Source of the DNA: Collinsella aerofaciens
Lineage (GTDB): Bacteria > Actinomycetota > Coriobacteriia > Coriobacteriales > Coriobacteriaceae
Reading direction: 5' to 3'
Assembly (NCBI RefSeq): GCF_015554145.1
Contig: NZ_JADNHZ010000001.1
Coordinates: 62,001-126,000, forward strand
DNA length: 64,000 nt
Both the position numbers and the translations under genes were made by a program. The number at the start of each line of letters is the position of its first letter. Position 1 is the first letter of the stretch. Shown piece by piece: positions 20,215-46,854 of the stretch. The notes beneath the pieces are model-generated. The model was given only the letters and a program-made list of their open reading frames with translations, was not told the DNA's origin and did not search any database.

Positions 20215-23200
20215 CTACATGTGCTTGCGACGACGATCGCCCAGCGTCACGCCCGCGGCCACGAGGGTGAAACCGCCGATGACGAACACCTCGCCCGCAA
20301 GCGCGGAATCATCACCGGTCTGGGCGAGCGCGGCAGGCGCGGCCTGTTTCTTGGCAACGGGGACCTTTGCAGCAGCCTGCGCAACCTGAGGCCTGGCCTG
20401 CGGCTCAGCCTTGGGATGATACTTGTCGTACTCGGCCTGTGCGGCAGCCAGGGCATCCTTGGCATCGCCAAGCTCGGCCAGCGCGGCGGCATAGGCGTCG
20501 TTGGCATCGGACAGCTTGGCATCGGCATCGCTCAGAGCAGCCTTGAGGCCAGCGGCGGCATCGACGGCGGCCTTATAGCGAGCGTAGGCAGCGTTCAGCT
20601 TGACCAGCTTCTCGTTGCCCGTCGTGCCCGCGGCAAGGGATGCCTTGTGGTCGACAGCCTCAAGATCGGCCTTGAGTGCCTCATCGTTGGCAAGCTCGGC
20701 CTTGGCCTTGACGATCTCGAGGTTCGCATCGACGACGGCTTCGTTGGCGGCCTCAAGCTGCTTCTGGGCATCGGCGACACCGTCTACGGCAGCGTCATAG
20801 ACGGCCTTAGCGTCGTCGACCGCCTTCTGAGCGCCGGCGAAGCGCTCGAAGGCCTTGTTTGCGCGGGTCAGCTCACCCTCGGCAGCCTTGGCCTCGGCCT
20901 GCGCGTCGGACACAGCCTGCGTCTTGGCGGCAACTGCCTGCTTGGCGTCCGAAAGAGCGGTCGCGGCCTGGGCATCTGATGCCTGAGCCTTGTCAACGCC
21001 AGCCTGGGCAGTGTCGTCGGCCTTCTTGGCATCGTTAAGCGTGCCCTGCTTGTTCGCAAGGTCCGCCCTAGCGGCGTCACGCTTGGCAGTGAGATCCTTG
21101 ACCGAAGCAGTGGCGTTGTCATACGCCTCGTTGGCCTTGTCGGACTTTGCCTTGGCGGCATCGCGGGCGCTGCGAGCCTTCGCCTTGTGAGCAGCGGCAT
21201 CGGCCGCCTTCTTCTTGCTGTCAGCAAGCGTGGCGTTTGCCTTGTCGAGGGCCGCCTGGGCAGTAGCGGCCTTGCTCTTGGCGGCATCGAGCTTGGCCTG
21301 AGGCGTCTTGACGTCGATGCCCTTGAGTTTGGCTTCGGCGGCGTCGTATGCCGTCTTCGCGGCGGCGGTGTTGGACTTAGCCTTCTCGTACTCGCCCTTG
21401 GCGGTGTTCATGTTCGTGTCGGCCGCGGTATAGGCGTCGCGTGCGTTTTCTTGCTTATCCAATGCGTTAGAATAAGCCGTTCCAGCAGCCCCGAAGTTCT
21501 TCTGCGCCTCTGCCAGCTTATTCTGAAGCTGCTTCAGCTGCTCCTTCTGCTCCTGAGTGCCGCCTGCGTTGTAGGCAGAGTCGATGTAGTCGTTCACGAG
21601 CTTCTTGAACTCGGAGACCGTGAAATCGGCCTGGCTCGCGCTTCCGCTATAGTCGAAAACGGTTACCTCGGAATCGGTGTTCTTGCCGCTACCGGTTGCG
21701 ATACCGATAGCGGTAGCACCGGCATCGATGATGTTGAGATAGTGCCCGCACTCTTTGTAGATGCTGTAGTAATGCTGGTAGATATAGTATGAATCATATC
21801 GATGGCTTCCAAGTGCGTCACCATACTGTTCGACGTACTTATCGAATGCCTTTTTCTCCTGGGTGTAGAGACCGGTATATGGCCAGCCAAGCGTATCCTC
21901 GGTCTCGCCTCCGGTGTATGCTCCACCGCCGCCTGCAAGATTCTCGCTTTCATCGAAATAGCAGTCCGAGTGTCCCCAGATGTTCGATGAATATGATGTA
22001 TTAAGGGCGGCTGCCGCAGTCATGCGGAGGCTGACGCTAAGCTCCGACTGACCGTTCGCCTTGCGGAGGTTGTTCTGGGTATCGAGATAGGTCAGGGCGT
22101 TACGCATCTGTTCCAAGGAGAGCGGATTGGTGTCGCGAGACATGTCCTGATCGACGTAATTATCATACCAGTCCTGTTTCTCTGTCGTCCCCATGAGCAT
22201 CGACGCGGCAGTACTTGCATTCGACTTCTGCGTGGCTGTGAACTGGCTGCCGCCGATGATGTAGTTCATGAAGCCGAACATGCCCTGGCTGATGACATTC
22301 TGGTCTACGGTCATGTTCGACTTGAGGTCGGCAATCTGCTGATTAAGCTTCTCGACCTCGGCGTTTGCGGCGTCGTATGCATTTTGCGCGTCGGTTACTT
22401 CAGCACGAGCCTGATCGAACTCGTTGCTCTTCTGCTGACGAACCTCGACGAGTCGGTCGTACTCCGCCTTCTTGTCGGCCTCGGTCTGCTGCGCCTGCTC
22501 GTATGCCGACTTCGCGGCGTCACGCTTACTGGCCGCGTCCTTGTACTCCTTGTTTGCCGCATCGTATGCAGTCTGGGCAGATGCCACAGCAGCGTTGGCG
22601 GCGTTGGCCTTCTCCTGCGCGGCGGTGGCGGTATTCTGGGCCGCCTGCAGGTTCGCCTGGGCGGTAGCGTCGGCATCCGTCGCGGCATTGAGCTCCGCCT
22701 GCGCGGTCTTGAGCTCACCAGCAGCAGCTTTCTTGGCGGCCTCAAGCGCACTCAGGTCAACACCCGTACCCGAGACGGCAGCATCGAGCGCGGCCTGCGC
22801 CTGGTCGAACTTCTGCTGGGCGTTATCGCGCGCGGTGGTTGCGGCTGCGAGAGCAGCGGCAGTCTCCTGCTTCTTGGCCTGGGCAGTCGTCAAAGCTGCC
22901 TCGGTATTCTGCTTTTCCTGCTGGGCGCTGGCCTCGGCAGCCTTGGCCTGGTCCAGATTGTCCTGTGCAGTAGCAACGGCCTTATTGGCGTCATCGAGCT
23001 TTGCCTGCGCGTCCTCGACGGCCTTCTTGGCGGCCTCGTACTCGTCCATACCCATGGCCTCGAGCTTGGCCTGGGCATCATCGAGGGCCTTCTTGGCCTC
23101 ATCCTGCTTTGCCTTGGCGTCCTTGAGCGCCTGGGTCTTATCCTCGACACTCTTGTTGGCCTGTTCGAGCTGATCGTTCAGGTCGCCCAGCTTCTTCTGC

Positions 23201-23670
23201 TGCTGCTCGGTCTTTTCGACGGCGACTTTGAGCTCGTCAATCTTCTCCTGGAGCGCGGCGACTTCTGCTGCGTTCTGCTCGATTTCGTTGTCGCTCACAG
23301 CCTGCGAGGCCTGATTCTTTTGCTGCTGTGCCTGCTTTTGAGACTGGCCCGCCGCGTCGGCCTTCTTCTGAGCCGCATCGTAGGCGGCCTGAGCGTCCTT
23401 GAGCTGCTTTGCCGACTCCTCTGCCAGCTGGGCAGCCGTCTTTACGACCGCTTGGTTGCCGGCGGCAACGGTGTTCTCTACAGAACTACCCCCCCCCTGA
23501 ACAGAATCGCCGTTATCTGCCGTCGGTGCGGCGATTGCCGCCAGCGGCGACATGAGCGGCTGAGCGATGAGGCCCGCCGTCAAAACGGTTGCGACGGCGC
23601 GGTTGGCAACGCCCTTGACGTTGACGGCCTTGGCCCGAGGCTCAAAGTGTTGTGGACTGTAGTTTGCCAT
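20215..23670 (-). CDS. Sortase-anchored coiled-coil surface protein with internal CAP domain
   Basis: A 1151-residue predicted cell-wall protein. The N-terminus has a charged region then a hydrophobic signal (VLTAGLIAQPLMSPLAAIAA, residues 29-48). Two very long Ala/Lys/Gln/Asp coiled-coil arms (about 75-455 and 690-1070) flank a globular segment (about 455-680) that looks like a CAP/SCP-like domain: NNLRKANGQSELSVSLRMTA, a WGHSDCY loop, SENLAGGGG and ECGHYLNIID. The C-terminus is a sortase substrate: LAQTGDD at 1115-1121, a membrane segment, then DRRRKHM. GGGAG precedes the ATG. It is monocistronic between a candidate operator (23736) and a terminator. Adhesion or host interaction is likely but unproven. 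A G9 run near codon 58 could allow phase variation. Confidence 0.88.
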   Translation of the reverse strand: MANYSPQHFEPRAKAVNVKGVANRAVATVLTAGLIAQPLMSPLAAIAAPTADNGDSVQGGGSSVENTVAAGNQAVVKTAAQLAEESAKQLKDAQAAYDAAQKKADAAGQSQKQAQQQKNQASQAVSDNEIEQNAAEVAALQEKIDELKVAVEKTEQQQKKLGDLNDQLEQANKSVEDKTQALKDAKAKQDEAKKALDDAQAKLEAMGMDEYEAAKKAVEDAQAKLDDANKAVATAQDNLDQAKAAEASAQQEKQNTEAALTTAQAKKQETAAALAAATTARDNAQQKFDQAQAALDAAVSGTGVDLSALEAAKKAAAGELKTAQAELNAATDADATAQANLQAAQNTATAAQEKANAANAAVASAQTAYDAANKEYKDAASKRDAAKSAYEQAQQTEADKKAEYDRLVEVRQQKSNEFDQARAEVTDAQNAYDAANAEVEKLNQQIADLKSNMTVDQNVISQGMFGFMNYIIGGSQFTATQKSNASTAASMLMGTTEKQDWYDNYVDQDMSRDTNPLSLEQMRNALTYLDTQNNLRKANGQSELSVSLRMTAAAALNTSYSSNIWGHSDCYFDESENLAGGGGAYTGGETEDTLGWPYTGLYTQEKKAFDKYVEQYGDALGSHRYDSYYIYQHYYSIYKECGHYLNIIDAGATAIGIATGSGKNTDSEVTVFDYSGSASQADFTVSEFKKLVNDYIDSAYNAGGTQEQKEQLKQLQNKLAEAQKNFGAAGTAYSNALDKQENARDAYTAADTNMNTAKGEYEKAKSNTAAAKTAYDAAEAKLKGIDVKTPQAKLDAAKSKAATAQAALDKANATLADSKKKAADAAAHKAKARSARDAAKAKSDKANEAYDNATASVKDLTAKRDAARADLANKQGTLNDAKKADDTAQAGVDKAQASDAQAATALSDAKQAVAAKTQAVSDAQAEAKAAEGELTRANKAFERFAGAQKAVDDAKAVYDAAVDGVADAQKQLEAANEAVVDANLEIVKAKAELANDEALKADLEAVDHKASLAAGTTGNEKLVKLNAAYARYKAAVDAAAGLKAALSDADAKLSDANDAYAAALAELGDAKDALAAAQAEYDKYHPKAEPQARPQVAQAAAKVPVAKKQAAPAALAQTGDDSALAGEVFVIGGFTLVAAGVTLGDRRRKHM
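23489..23497 (-). repeat. G9 homopolymer tract in the surface-protein gene
   Basis: Nine consecutive C on the plus strand (G on the coding strand) encode part of Gln-Gly-Gly-Gly at residues 58-61, just after the signal peptide. A one-base slip would truncate the protein early, the classic position for slipped-strand phase variation. Confidence 0.75.
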
Positions 23671-23711
23671 GGCTTTCTCCCTTTGACACGGATGTATCCA
23701 TACGCTTCAAA

Positions 23712-23817
23712 ATGTAGGAGCTGATTTTTGAATTCTGTTGCGCAACATTGGTCACCAGCGGATTTTTTGAAATTCGCGCTCTCGTGCTTCACAATTTCGT
23801 CACATATGTAGGAGCTG
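23712..23817. repeat. Direct repeat ATGTAGGAGCTG in the surface-protein upstream region
   Basis: The 12-mer ATGTAGGAGCTG occurs at 23712-23723 and again at 23806-23817. Each is followed or preceded by GATTTTT(T)GAA(A)TTC-like sequence. It suggests a local duplication or paired regulatory sites between the divergent surface-protein and DUF389 genes. Confidence 0.6.
23736..23747. promoter_or_regulatory. Palindrome TGTTGCGCAACA, second copy
   Basis: Identical to 7494-7505, including three more bases on one side (CAATGTTGCGCAACA on the minus strand), 66 bp upstream of the surface-protein start. It is a candidate binding site of a shared regulator. Confidence 0.5.
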
Positions 23818-44307: not shown

Positions 44308-45117
44308 ATGATCGGAACTCGCAGTTCATCGCCCTACACCCCACATGTCGACGTCGCCCCCGCCGACCGCCCACTCATCCTCGTCGCGCCGCGTTGGGAA
44401 GAGGCAAAGCCGTTTTTAAGCGAGACGCTCTCCCCCAACGAGGAGATTGCCAGCGTCTTTGTCGATGCCATCCTTGCCGCCGGCGGCCTGCCGCTGCAGA
44501 TGTCCATCACCGAGGACATTGAGGTCATCCGCCATTACGTCGATATCGCCGACGGTATCGCTATTCCCGGCGGCCCGGATGTCAACCCCAAACGCTGGGG
44601 CGATGATCGACCCTACGACCCCACCCTCTGCTGCGAGATCCGCGATTGCTTTGAGTTTAAGCTGGTCGGCGAGGTGCTCCGCGCCAAAAAGCCGCTCTTT
44701 ACCACCTGCCGCGGCACGCAGTTGCTCAATGTCGCCACTGGCGGCACTCTGTGCATGGACGTGCCGAGCCTGGGCGCTCGCGAGGGCCGCACACAGTGGC
44801 GCCATACCCACGTGCTCAACGATCCCGTGCACCCTGTCGAAGTCATGCCGGGCTCGCTGCTGGAGCGCGCGCTTGGCGGCCACAGACTGATCCAGACCAA
44901 CTCAGCACATCACTGCTGCGTCGATCGTCTGGGTAAAAGCACGCGCTTGGTCGCCAAGGCAACCGACGGTATTCCCGAGTGCATCGAGGTCGAAGGCCAA
45001 CCATTCTGTCTAGGCGTGCAATGGCATCCCGAGTACACGTGGAAGACGCTCGAAACCGACTTTAACCTGTGGAAGTCGTTTGTCGAGGCGGCGGCAAAGG
45101 TAAAGCAGGCCCGCTAG
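44308..45117 (+). CDS. Gamma-glutamyl-gamma-aminobutyrate hydrolase family protein (C26, PuuD-like)
   Basis: A 269-residue class I glutamine-amidotransferase-like hydrolase that cleaves gamma-glutamyl bonds, as in putrescine breakdown. The nucleophile Cys is in LFTTCRGTQLLNVATGG (near residue 136), and the catalytic His/Glu are in GVQWHPEYT. The upstream DGIAIPGGPDVNPKRWGDD motif is typical. It follows the glutamate-type importer by 87 bp and may be functionally linked (gamma-glutamyl compounds), but a hairpin lies between. The ribosome site is weak. Confidence 0.9.
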   Translation: MIGTRSSSPYTPHVDVAPADRPLILVAPRWEEAKPFLSETLSPNEEIASVFVDAILAAGGLPLQMSITEDIEVIRHYVDIADGIAIPGGPDVNPKRWGDDRPYDPTLCCEIRDCFEFKLVGEVLRAKKPLFTTCRGTQLLNVATGGTLCMDVPSLGAREGRTQWRHTHVLNDPVHPVEVMPGSLLERALGGHRLIQTNSAHHCCVDRLGKSTRLVAKATDGIPECIEVEGQPFCLGVQWHPEYTWKTLETDFNLWKSFVEAAAKVKQAR

Positions 45118-45150: not shown

Positions 45151-45190
45151 CGGGGGGGGCGGACACCAGCTACGGTGCCCGCCCCCCTGT
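45151..45190. terminator. Terminator between the C26 gene and the ABC exporter
   Basis: GGGGGGGGCGG..CACC pairs with GGTGCCCGCCCCCC, followed by TGTATTTG on the plus strand. It has an eight-G run that could vary. Confidence 0.7.
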
Positions 45191-45227: not shown

Positions 45228-46046
45228 TCAAAGAAATCTCGACCGCAATTGGTCGACGGTAAAGCAAATGGCAAGAACGCTTGCTACGTTTATGAGGCAG
45301 TCAATTAAAATCGAAACGCATTGACCATCCTCCAACGGGGTCACGCCGCAAATCCACATGAGCATCGAGGACGGAAACGGAAGCATGGAATTGGCTCCGA
45401 CCTGTATGTAGATCGTTACGACGTTGACAAGCAACAGCATGCCAATAGGACCGAAGCCGGATCCAAAATAGGAAACAACGATCACGCAAGAGACCACGTA
45501 TGCAAGGCAGACCGCACTCGCCAGAAGAAGTCGATCGCAAAACATATTCAGGTTGAAATACTGTTGAGCATCCAAAACGATTGCGCAGTTAAGACAGTAC
45601 AAAACGACACTTGACAGGATAAACGCGCCCAATAGGGCGAAAGAAGACAGCATCGCTCGCGCAACGGTAACGCACGCCCGCTTCCCTCCCCGAGCCTCCG
45701 ACAGCCCCCACGGTTCCTCGACAAAGCCCGAACTGACAAAGCGCGGCACAATACAAGCCGCGATGAACGGAAAGAACAATGCATGAGCCAACGGGGCTAC
45801 GTTGAACAGCAGACCGCGAAAAACCTCTGCATTACCAAATAGAAGGACATCCTCCGCCGATAGCCGAAGCGTCGGGTCTGGGAAGAAGCCCAAGAAACTG
45901 TTCTCACGGAGGCTGCAGAACCACATCGGGAAAGAATTAAGCTGCAATATCACCATGCACGCATAAATTACCGGGATTAAGGCGTACGTCCATTTACTCA
46001 CGTGCTTCAATTCTGAATGGAGGAATCTTTTAATCTGACGAGCCAT
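45228..46046 (-). CDS. ABC-2 type exporter permease (second)
   Basis: A 272-residue membrane protein with six predicted helices (for example WTYALIPVIYACMVILQLNSF, LLFNVAPLAHALFFPFIAACIV, AMLSSFALLGAFILSSVVLYCL, SILIDCLINVASVLAICFTV). No cytoplasmic ATPase part. The start ATG at 46046 follows GGGGGTG at good spacing and overlaps the previous permease by 17 bp. With its partner and the ATPase it forms an ABC exporter similar in layout to lantibiotic-immunity LanFEG systems. The gene looks AT-richer than its neighbours, suggesting acquisition. Its substrate is unknown. Confidence 0.8.
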   Translation of the reverse strand: MARQIKRFLHSELKHVSKWTYALIPVIYACMVILQLNSFPMWFCSLRENSFLGFFPDPTLRLSAEDVLLFGNAEVFRGLLFNVAPLAHALFFPFIAACIVPRFVSSGFVEEPWGLSEARGGKRACVTVARAMLSSFALLGAFILSSVVLYCLNCAIVLDAQQYFNLNMFCDRLLLASAVCLAYVVSCVIVVSYFGSGFGPIGMLLLVNVVTIYIQVGANSMLPFPSSMLMWICGVTPLEDGQCVSILIDCLINVASVLAICFTVDQLRSRFL

Positions 46047-46854
46047 TGAGCACACCCCCAGCACGAAAGCTCACGAGAGCGTAAATCAATACCGATAAAC
46101 AGCTGGCTGCCACGCCATAGCCCAGAAGCGCCAGTTGCCCCATATCGCTATACCCAAGGGCGCATCCGACTCCAAGGTACGGCCCAGGAAGGAAGAAGAT
46201 CCATCGCAAGGATGGTATAGGTGCCTGAAGGAAGGCTCCGTAGAGCGTCAAGCTCATGACAAATCCGATTATGATTGCAGCCCCGCTCAATACAGCGCTG
46301 CCTGTAATCCGATAGATGGTCACCGTCTCCAGCGCAACCGATATCACCAATACGGCGTTGATTATCATCGCAGGCAAAAATGCAGTCAGCATGCCGTGCG
46401 TGTAGTTTTGCCCCCCACGCAGTATGGCTATTGCAAACAAAAGAAGGCAAAGTGCGCTATATGCTGCGCCGACTATTAAAGCAGACGAAAGCACATGTGC
46501 CAAAGCCCCATTAAAGCGGGCGAGACCTCTTGCTGAAGAAATTCGGTATCCCTCTTTATAGCCATGCTCCTGTAAAAGCACCAAACAAACGATGAGTGGA
46601 ACGAACAGGGATGTACCGGCAAAAGCGCTGCGCGCAAGGGACTCATCAGGCGCAGAAGGATCGATTGCATTCCAGAAGAAACCAATATCCTCCCCACAAA
46701 CGCCATAGCCAAAGCCTAGCAACGTTGCTCCGTTATTTAGAAAAACACCGAAGAGAAGACCGCACGCCAACATAAGCGTAAGACCAAACTGCGCCGGAAA
46801 CATCCTGTGTAGACGCATCATATCTGCCTTTATGGGATGGATCGCCCGCTTCAT
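46030..46854 (-). CDS. ABC-2 type exporter permease (first)
   Basis: A 274-residue membrane protein with six helices (FGLTLMLACGLLFGVFLNNGA, TSLFVPLIVCLVLLQEHGY, ALIVGAAYSALCLLLFAIAIL, AMIINAVLVISVALETVTIY, AAIIIGFVMSLTLYGAF, LLGYGVAASCLSVLIYALVSF). The loop with QEHGYKEGYRISSARGL resembles permeases of the LanE/LanG group. The ATG overlaps the ATPase stop by 4 bp. It is paired with the second permease. Confidence 0.8.
   Translation of the reverse strand: MKRAIHPIKADMMRLHRMFPAQFGLTLMLACGLLFGVFLNNGATLLGFGYGVCGEDIGFFWNAIDPSAPDESLARSAFAGTSLFVPLIVCLVLLQEHGYKEGYRISSARGLARFNGALAHVLSSALIVGAAYSALCLLLFAIAILRGGQNYTHGMLTAFLPAMIINAVLVISVALETVTIYRITGSAVLSGAAIIIGFVMSLTLYGAFLQAPIPSLRWIFFLPGPYLGVGCALGYSDMGQLALLGYGVAASCLSVLIYALVSFRAGGVLNGSSD

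Follow-up and report, generated by a model that had tools for sequence, protein, structure and literature searches.

The window, that is, the whole stretch of 64,000 nucleotides analysed from a Collinsella aerofaciens genome, contained a gene for a large surface protein with a homopolymeric tract close to its start (Table 1). The tract was a run of exactly nine bases, C on the plus strand and G on the coding (minus) strand. It began at base 174 of the coding sequence, the third base of codon 58, and spanned codons 58–61, which read CAG GGG GGG GGT (Gln58, Gly59, Gly60, and Gly61). The original prediction had placed a run of nine Gs just past the signal-peptide region of this gene, and both its position and its length were confirmed. 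An overlapping reading frame on the plus strand (22384–23724) was rejected by eye as a shadow frame opposite the GC-rich coiled-coil gene.

The assignment of the central domain to the CAP superfamily was made by PF00188, which matched with 36.9 bits against a gathering cut-off of 21.1. Residues His567, Glu576, Asn577, and His643 of this domain were invariant in 23 orthologs and paralogs. When a profile of the CAP region was compared with PDB sequences, GAPR-1 (E 1.3e-5) and PrgA (6z9k, E 0.013) were matched; with the CAP region of a single protein as the query, only weak matches to antibodies were obtained among PDB sequences. The model of the CAP region had a pLDDT of 80.6 and a pTM of 0.80. 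In a fold search with this model the top match was PrgA (6z9l), with an E value of 0.0024, a probability of 0.95, and a low TM-score of 0.28, and the next matches were CAP proteins. The full-length AlphaFold2 model was of low confidence (mean pLDDT 66.6, pTM 0.35) and was therefore used for helix content only. Matches reported by PADLOC were rejected as cross-matches of the coiled coils to SMC-like proteins.

The C-terminus (LAQTGD, FVIGGFTLVAAGVTL, and RRRKHM) fitted an LPXTG-type sortase anchor by its motif, hydrophobic stretch, and basic tail, and three sortase genes were present in the genome. No Pfam anchor family matched the 1151-residue protein. The sortase anchoring proposed earlier for this protein is probable from its LAQTG-type end and the sortases encoded in the genome. 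The nearest family model was TIGR04320 (SEC10/PgrA surface exclusion), whose score of 50.6 bits was below the curated cut-off of 70, so that the protein was called PrgA-like and was not entered as a member of the SEC10/PgrA family. Enterococcal PrgA (SEC10/PgrA, TIGR04320; PDB codes 6z9l and 6z9k), the best match by both structure and family model, is likewise wall-anchored and carries a CAP/protease-like domain; this domain is extracellular and sits on a long stalk (PMC10588982). From sequence and models, PrgA-like CAP-on-a-stalk protein is a better label for the product than adhesin.

Table 1. Position of the features in the window (first eight rows) and of further tract-bearing loci in the same genome
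Feature	Position	Strand	Basis
Large surface protein CDS, 1151 aa: signal peptide, coiled coil, CAP domain, coiled coil, LAQTG end	20215..23670	-	start region conserved in 13 relatives
Signal-peptide region, residues about 1–48	23527..23670	-	sequence reading
G9 tract	23489..23497	-	sequence, frame reading; G9/G10 polymorphism across genomes
TAGTTCTGTAG, 11 bases immediately 3' of the tract	23478..23488	-	stop source for both wrong frames
First long helical (coiled-coil) stalk segment, residues about 76–451	22318..23445	-	AlphaFold2 model
CAP (PF00188) domain, residues 529–674	21649..22086	-	profile match; invariant residues; model compared with PDB
Second long helical (coiled-coil) stalk segment, residues about 706–1083	20422..21555	-	AlphaFold2 model
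LAQTG sortase-type motif, followed by hydrophobic stretch and RRRKHM	20314..20328	-	sequence reading
Four Flp/Fap-type pilin genes, G9/G10 tract	L068:9844-9878; L070 near 10981; L076 near 9807; L077 near 2902	+; -; -; -	sequence
Tandem SpaA-domain protein pair, G9 each	L069:9071-9079; L069:11615-11623		sequence
D12-class adenine DNA methyltransferase, G11, out of frame	L077:3399-3409	+	sequence
Bacterial sugar transferase leader, G10 tract	L080:10576-10585	-	sequence
LuxR-type membrane regulator, G12 four bases ahead of ATG	L085:9246-9257	+	sequence
Hexapeptide acyltransferase-like gene with tract			sequence
Secreted zinc-ribbon protein, C9, out of frame

Reading frame and chance expectation of the tract

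The gain or loss of one base in the tract closed the frame within four codons, giving 63 residues with G8 and 61 residues with G10, and the frame was open only at a length of nine plus or minus multiples of three. The earlier claim that a slip of one base ends translation early was thus borne out by frame reading. Both stops lay in TAGTTCTGTAG, of which the first TAG ended the G10 frame and the second TAG ended the G8 frame, and these bases were unchanged in all uninterrupted tract-bearing alleles read. Since the signal-peptide region lies upstream of the tract, a closed allele encodes little beyond the leader. Genes switched by slipped-strand mispairing carry a repeat in the reading frame or promoter, of about eight or more bases in the case of poly-G. 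The G9 tract lay inside the reading frame, was of sufficient length, and truncated the product in both the G8 and G10 forms.

The tract had been described as the sole coding run of such length in the window, which held true: the only other G/C run of at least seven bases was a G8 (45152–45159) between a coding sequence ending at 45117 and another at 45228–46064. This intergenic run formed one arm of a GC-rich hairpin, in agreement with the terminator-like site assigned to it earlier. Dinucleotide shuffles of the window contained a mean of 0.47 G9 runs, and 30 of the 100 shuffles had one or more; synonymous-codon resampling of the tract gene gave a run of at least nine Gs in 46 of 5000 cases. 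A single G9 in 64 kb of such composition is not remarkable alone. As a lone G9 was not improbable by these shuffles, the case must rest on other evidence. GGG was the rarest glycine codon in the tract genes (30 of 625), and two consecutive GGG codons were kept in every tract allele. Through the tract start, 26 of 180 aligned sites were variable among the G9 alleles, while the GGG pair was constant.

Tract alleles of the gene and of a second surface protein

An ortholog of the gene was found in 14 of 45 Collinsella genomes, with duplicate entries of the same assemblies counted once. Ten of these orthologs had a G9 tract with an open frame (G000, G001, G002, G006, G007, G009, G011, G013, G027, and G033). 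Two orthologs (G010 and G005) had a G10 tract with a stop at residue 61, and their frame was otherwise open to the LAQTG end, with no further lesion over about 1090 codons. The tract and the off-frame stops were therefore retained in 12 genomes, and its length was polymorphic with the gene body intact, as in genes subject to slipped-strand mispairing. G003 had a tract-free allele, GAAGGGCGACAGC. In G025, the tract was the site of an IS110-family element (PF01548 and PF02371), which had nine Gs to one side and the gene body to the other. The far end of this element (L022:1-1520 and L011) gave the gene body an in-frame ATG. Invariant tract length across strains had been named as the outcome that would speak against phase variation. 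When this was examined between species-level genomes rather than clonal isolates, the tract was not invariant, as G9, G10, IS-interrupted, and tract-free alleles were all present. The tract and its flanks were also searched for in viral contigs, and none was found.

Of 549 flanking positions, 11 differed between the two G10 alleles, and 7 and 10 between these alleles and their nearest G9 alleles. Each G10 allele was thus closer to some G9 allele, which fits recurrent slippage, and the sequences favour two separate slips.

When the G003 and G005 genes were compared, they were 97–100% identical over alignment columns 240–2640 and 89% identical in the first 240 columns, which bear the tract. The middle of the G003/G005 type, including the CAP domain, shared only about 49–66% identity with the other type in columns 1200–2640. 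This identity mosaic suggests that recombination has reassorted tract and body, as is seen in polymorphic surface antigens. The central CAP region (20422–22318 in the window) was thus of two divergent types across the genomes, with about 49–66% DNA identity, between ends that were conserved.

Another G9 tract of the same genome (C33:26825; L082:9827-9835, minus strand) lay in the gene of a surface protein of 1141 residues, at codon 58. This protein has an FctA-type isopeptide domain, and the best sortase match lies at a distance of about 5 kb from its gene. The FctA-type and CAP-type proteins are unrelated, and both had the G9 tract at the same codon. Among the relatives of the FctA gene, with the gene itself included, eight had G9 with an open start, two had G8, one had G10, and eight were tract-free. 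The three G8 or G10 alleles were closed after 64–68 residues or split at the tract.

Other G tracts of the genome

The G/C runs of the genome numbered 81 of six bases, 10 of seven, 8 of eight, 10 of nine, 4 of ten, 1 of eleven, and 1 of twelve. Runs of at least nine bases were therefore observed 16 times against about 0.17 expected, when the decay from six to seven bases was extrapolated. It is this genome-wide census of run lengths, not the single tract, that indicates non-randomness. G9 runs were present in all 45 Collinsella genomes, with a median of six.

In the pilin genes, two overlapping ATG codons in different frames (ATGCATG or ATGCATGCAGCGG) preceded the tract, G9 opening the first start and G10 the second. 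Across the genus, 15 of 17 pilin copies (14 with nine or ten Gs and three with six) had the pilin open from one or the other of the two starts. In the SpaA-domain pair, each G9 was preceded by AGGAGG and then by TTG/GTG starts that overlap in different frames. The D12-class methyltransferase would be a candidate phase-variable methylase by its sequence, and this tract-bearing methyltransferase was found in none of the other Collinsella genomes examined (45 in the set). The G10 tract at L080 was followed by a hairpin, GTTCCTGGGGACAGGAAC, between the end of a conserved gene and the sugar transferase gene. The same element of tract and hairpin, with G8–G11, preceded transferase genes in other genomes. 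The G12 of the LuxR-type regulator is possibly in its ribosome-binding region.

Proposed switch and its meaning

The G9 tract is very probably a slipped-strand poly-G phase-variation (contingency) locus, at which switching would occur within a clone. This reading, put forward in the original prediction, was supported by the G9 and G10 alleles across genomes, the IS110-family insertion, and the second gene with G8, G9, and G10 alleles. Slipped-strand mispairing at replication would add or remove one G. With nine Gs (or nine plus or minus three), the frame would be open and the 1151-residue wall-anchored protein would be made. With G8 or G10, translation would end at residue 63 or 61, respectively, and yield little beyond the leader peptide. 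A clone would then be a mix of cells with and without the CAP-on-a-stalk protein on their surface. The tract would be one of a larger set in this genome, which includes those of the pilins, the sortase-locus surface protein, the sugar transferase leader, and the DNA methyltransferase. We infer that slippage takes place at replication within a clone, that the protein is then lost from the surface, and that the variation is of advantage.

An unlikely alternative is that the tract is only a mutational hotspot, with the G10 and IS alleles as decaying copies of a dispensable gene, free of reversible switching and of selection on the tract. The presence of the gene in just 14 of the 45 genomes and its one IS-split copy do indicate that it is dispensable. 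However, decay is improbable for G10 copies that are otherwise free of lesions, and it is at odds with the preservation of tract and off-frame stops in 12 genomes, with the like pattern at the FctA gene, and with the great excess of long G runs genome-wide. It is still less likely that G10 is a product of faulty assembly or sequencing and that the true tract has a constant length of nine. Sequencing is known to be error-prone at G homopolymers, and both G10 assemblies are short-read, as judged from their NODE contig names. Nevertheless, ten genomes were concordant at G9, G10 occurred in two genomes, and in another three genomes the FctA tract was G8 or G10. The FctA gene encodes an unrelated protein and varied in both directions, which makes assembly error unlikely as a general explanation.

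Transcription across homopolymer runs can also slip, and a tract that chiefly drives transcriptional slippage or ribosomal frameshifting would set a fixed ratio of full-length to truncated product in every cell. We give this explanation as little weight as sequencing error, since the genomic tract length itself is variable and no role is evident for off-frame products of such short length. Within the phase-variation reading, slips during transcription could make the off state less strict.

Poly-G phase variation is of a known kind, as in the pili of Bifidobacterium breve and in Gardnerella, and is apparently unreported for Collinsella. A literature search of partial coverage, and thus weak as evidence of novelty, gave no report of phase variation or slippage in Collinsella or Coriobacteriia. 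We know of no phase variation of PrgA. In B. breve UCC2003, the sortase-dependent pilus genes bbr_0113 and bbr_1889 have a G10–G12 tract just past the leader, the off state corresponds to a short ORF of 65 aa (bbr_1889a), and maximum-depth sequencing gave mixed tract lengths (PMC9187656). Both organisms are gut actinobacteria, of different classes of the phylum, with a tract just behind the leader of a sortase-dependent protein and a short off-state ORF. They differ in that the B. breve targets are pilins and their switching was shown experimentally, whereas the Collinsella target is a CAP-on-stalk protein whose switching is deduced from alleles. Gardnerella has about 20 G/C tracts per genome, and the genes associated with them include those of LPXTG surface proteins and methyltransferases, with lengths of 9 and 10 among colonies; about 70% of its tracts are upstream of genes, whereas the Collinsella tract is inside the coding sequence (PMC11287997). 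DsA1 of Cutibacterium (P.) acnes is an LPXTG surface protein with homopolymeric tracts, and its expression differs by strain (PMC5527093). It is unrelated to the Collinsella protein and has PT repeats.

A wider interpretation, which we regard as doubtful, is a Collinsella phasome in which a PrgA-like surface-exclusion/protease protein, two-start pilins, envelope-polysaccharide genes, and a DNA methyltransferase would all be switched by poly-G tracts. Both the cell surface and the receptiveness of cells to conjugation or phages would then be toggled.

Collinsella is a common genus of the human gut and has been linked to metabolic and inflammatory conditions. If switching at these tracts takes place in the gut, an isolate or a shotgun assembly would capture the surface at one moment only, and links found between strains of Collinsella and traits of the host could hinge on switch states.
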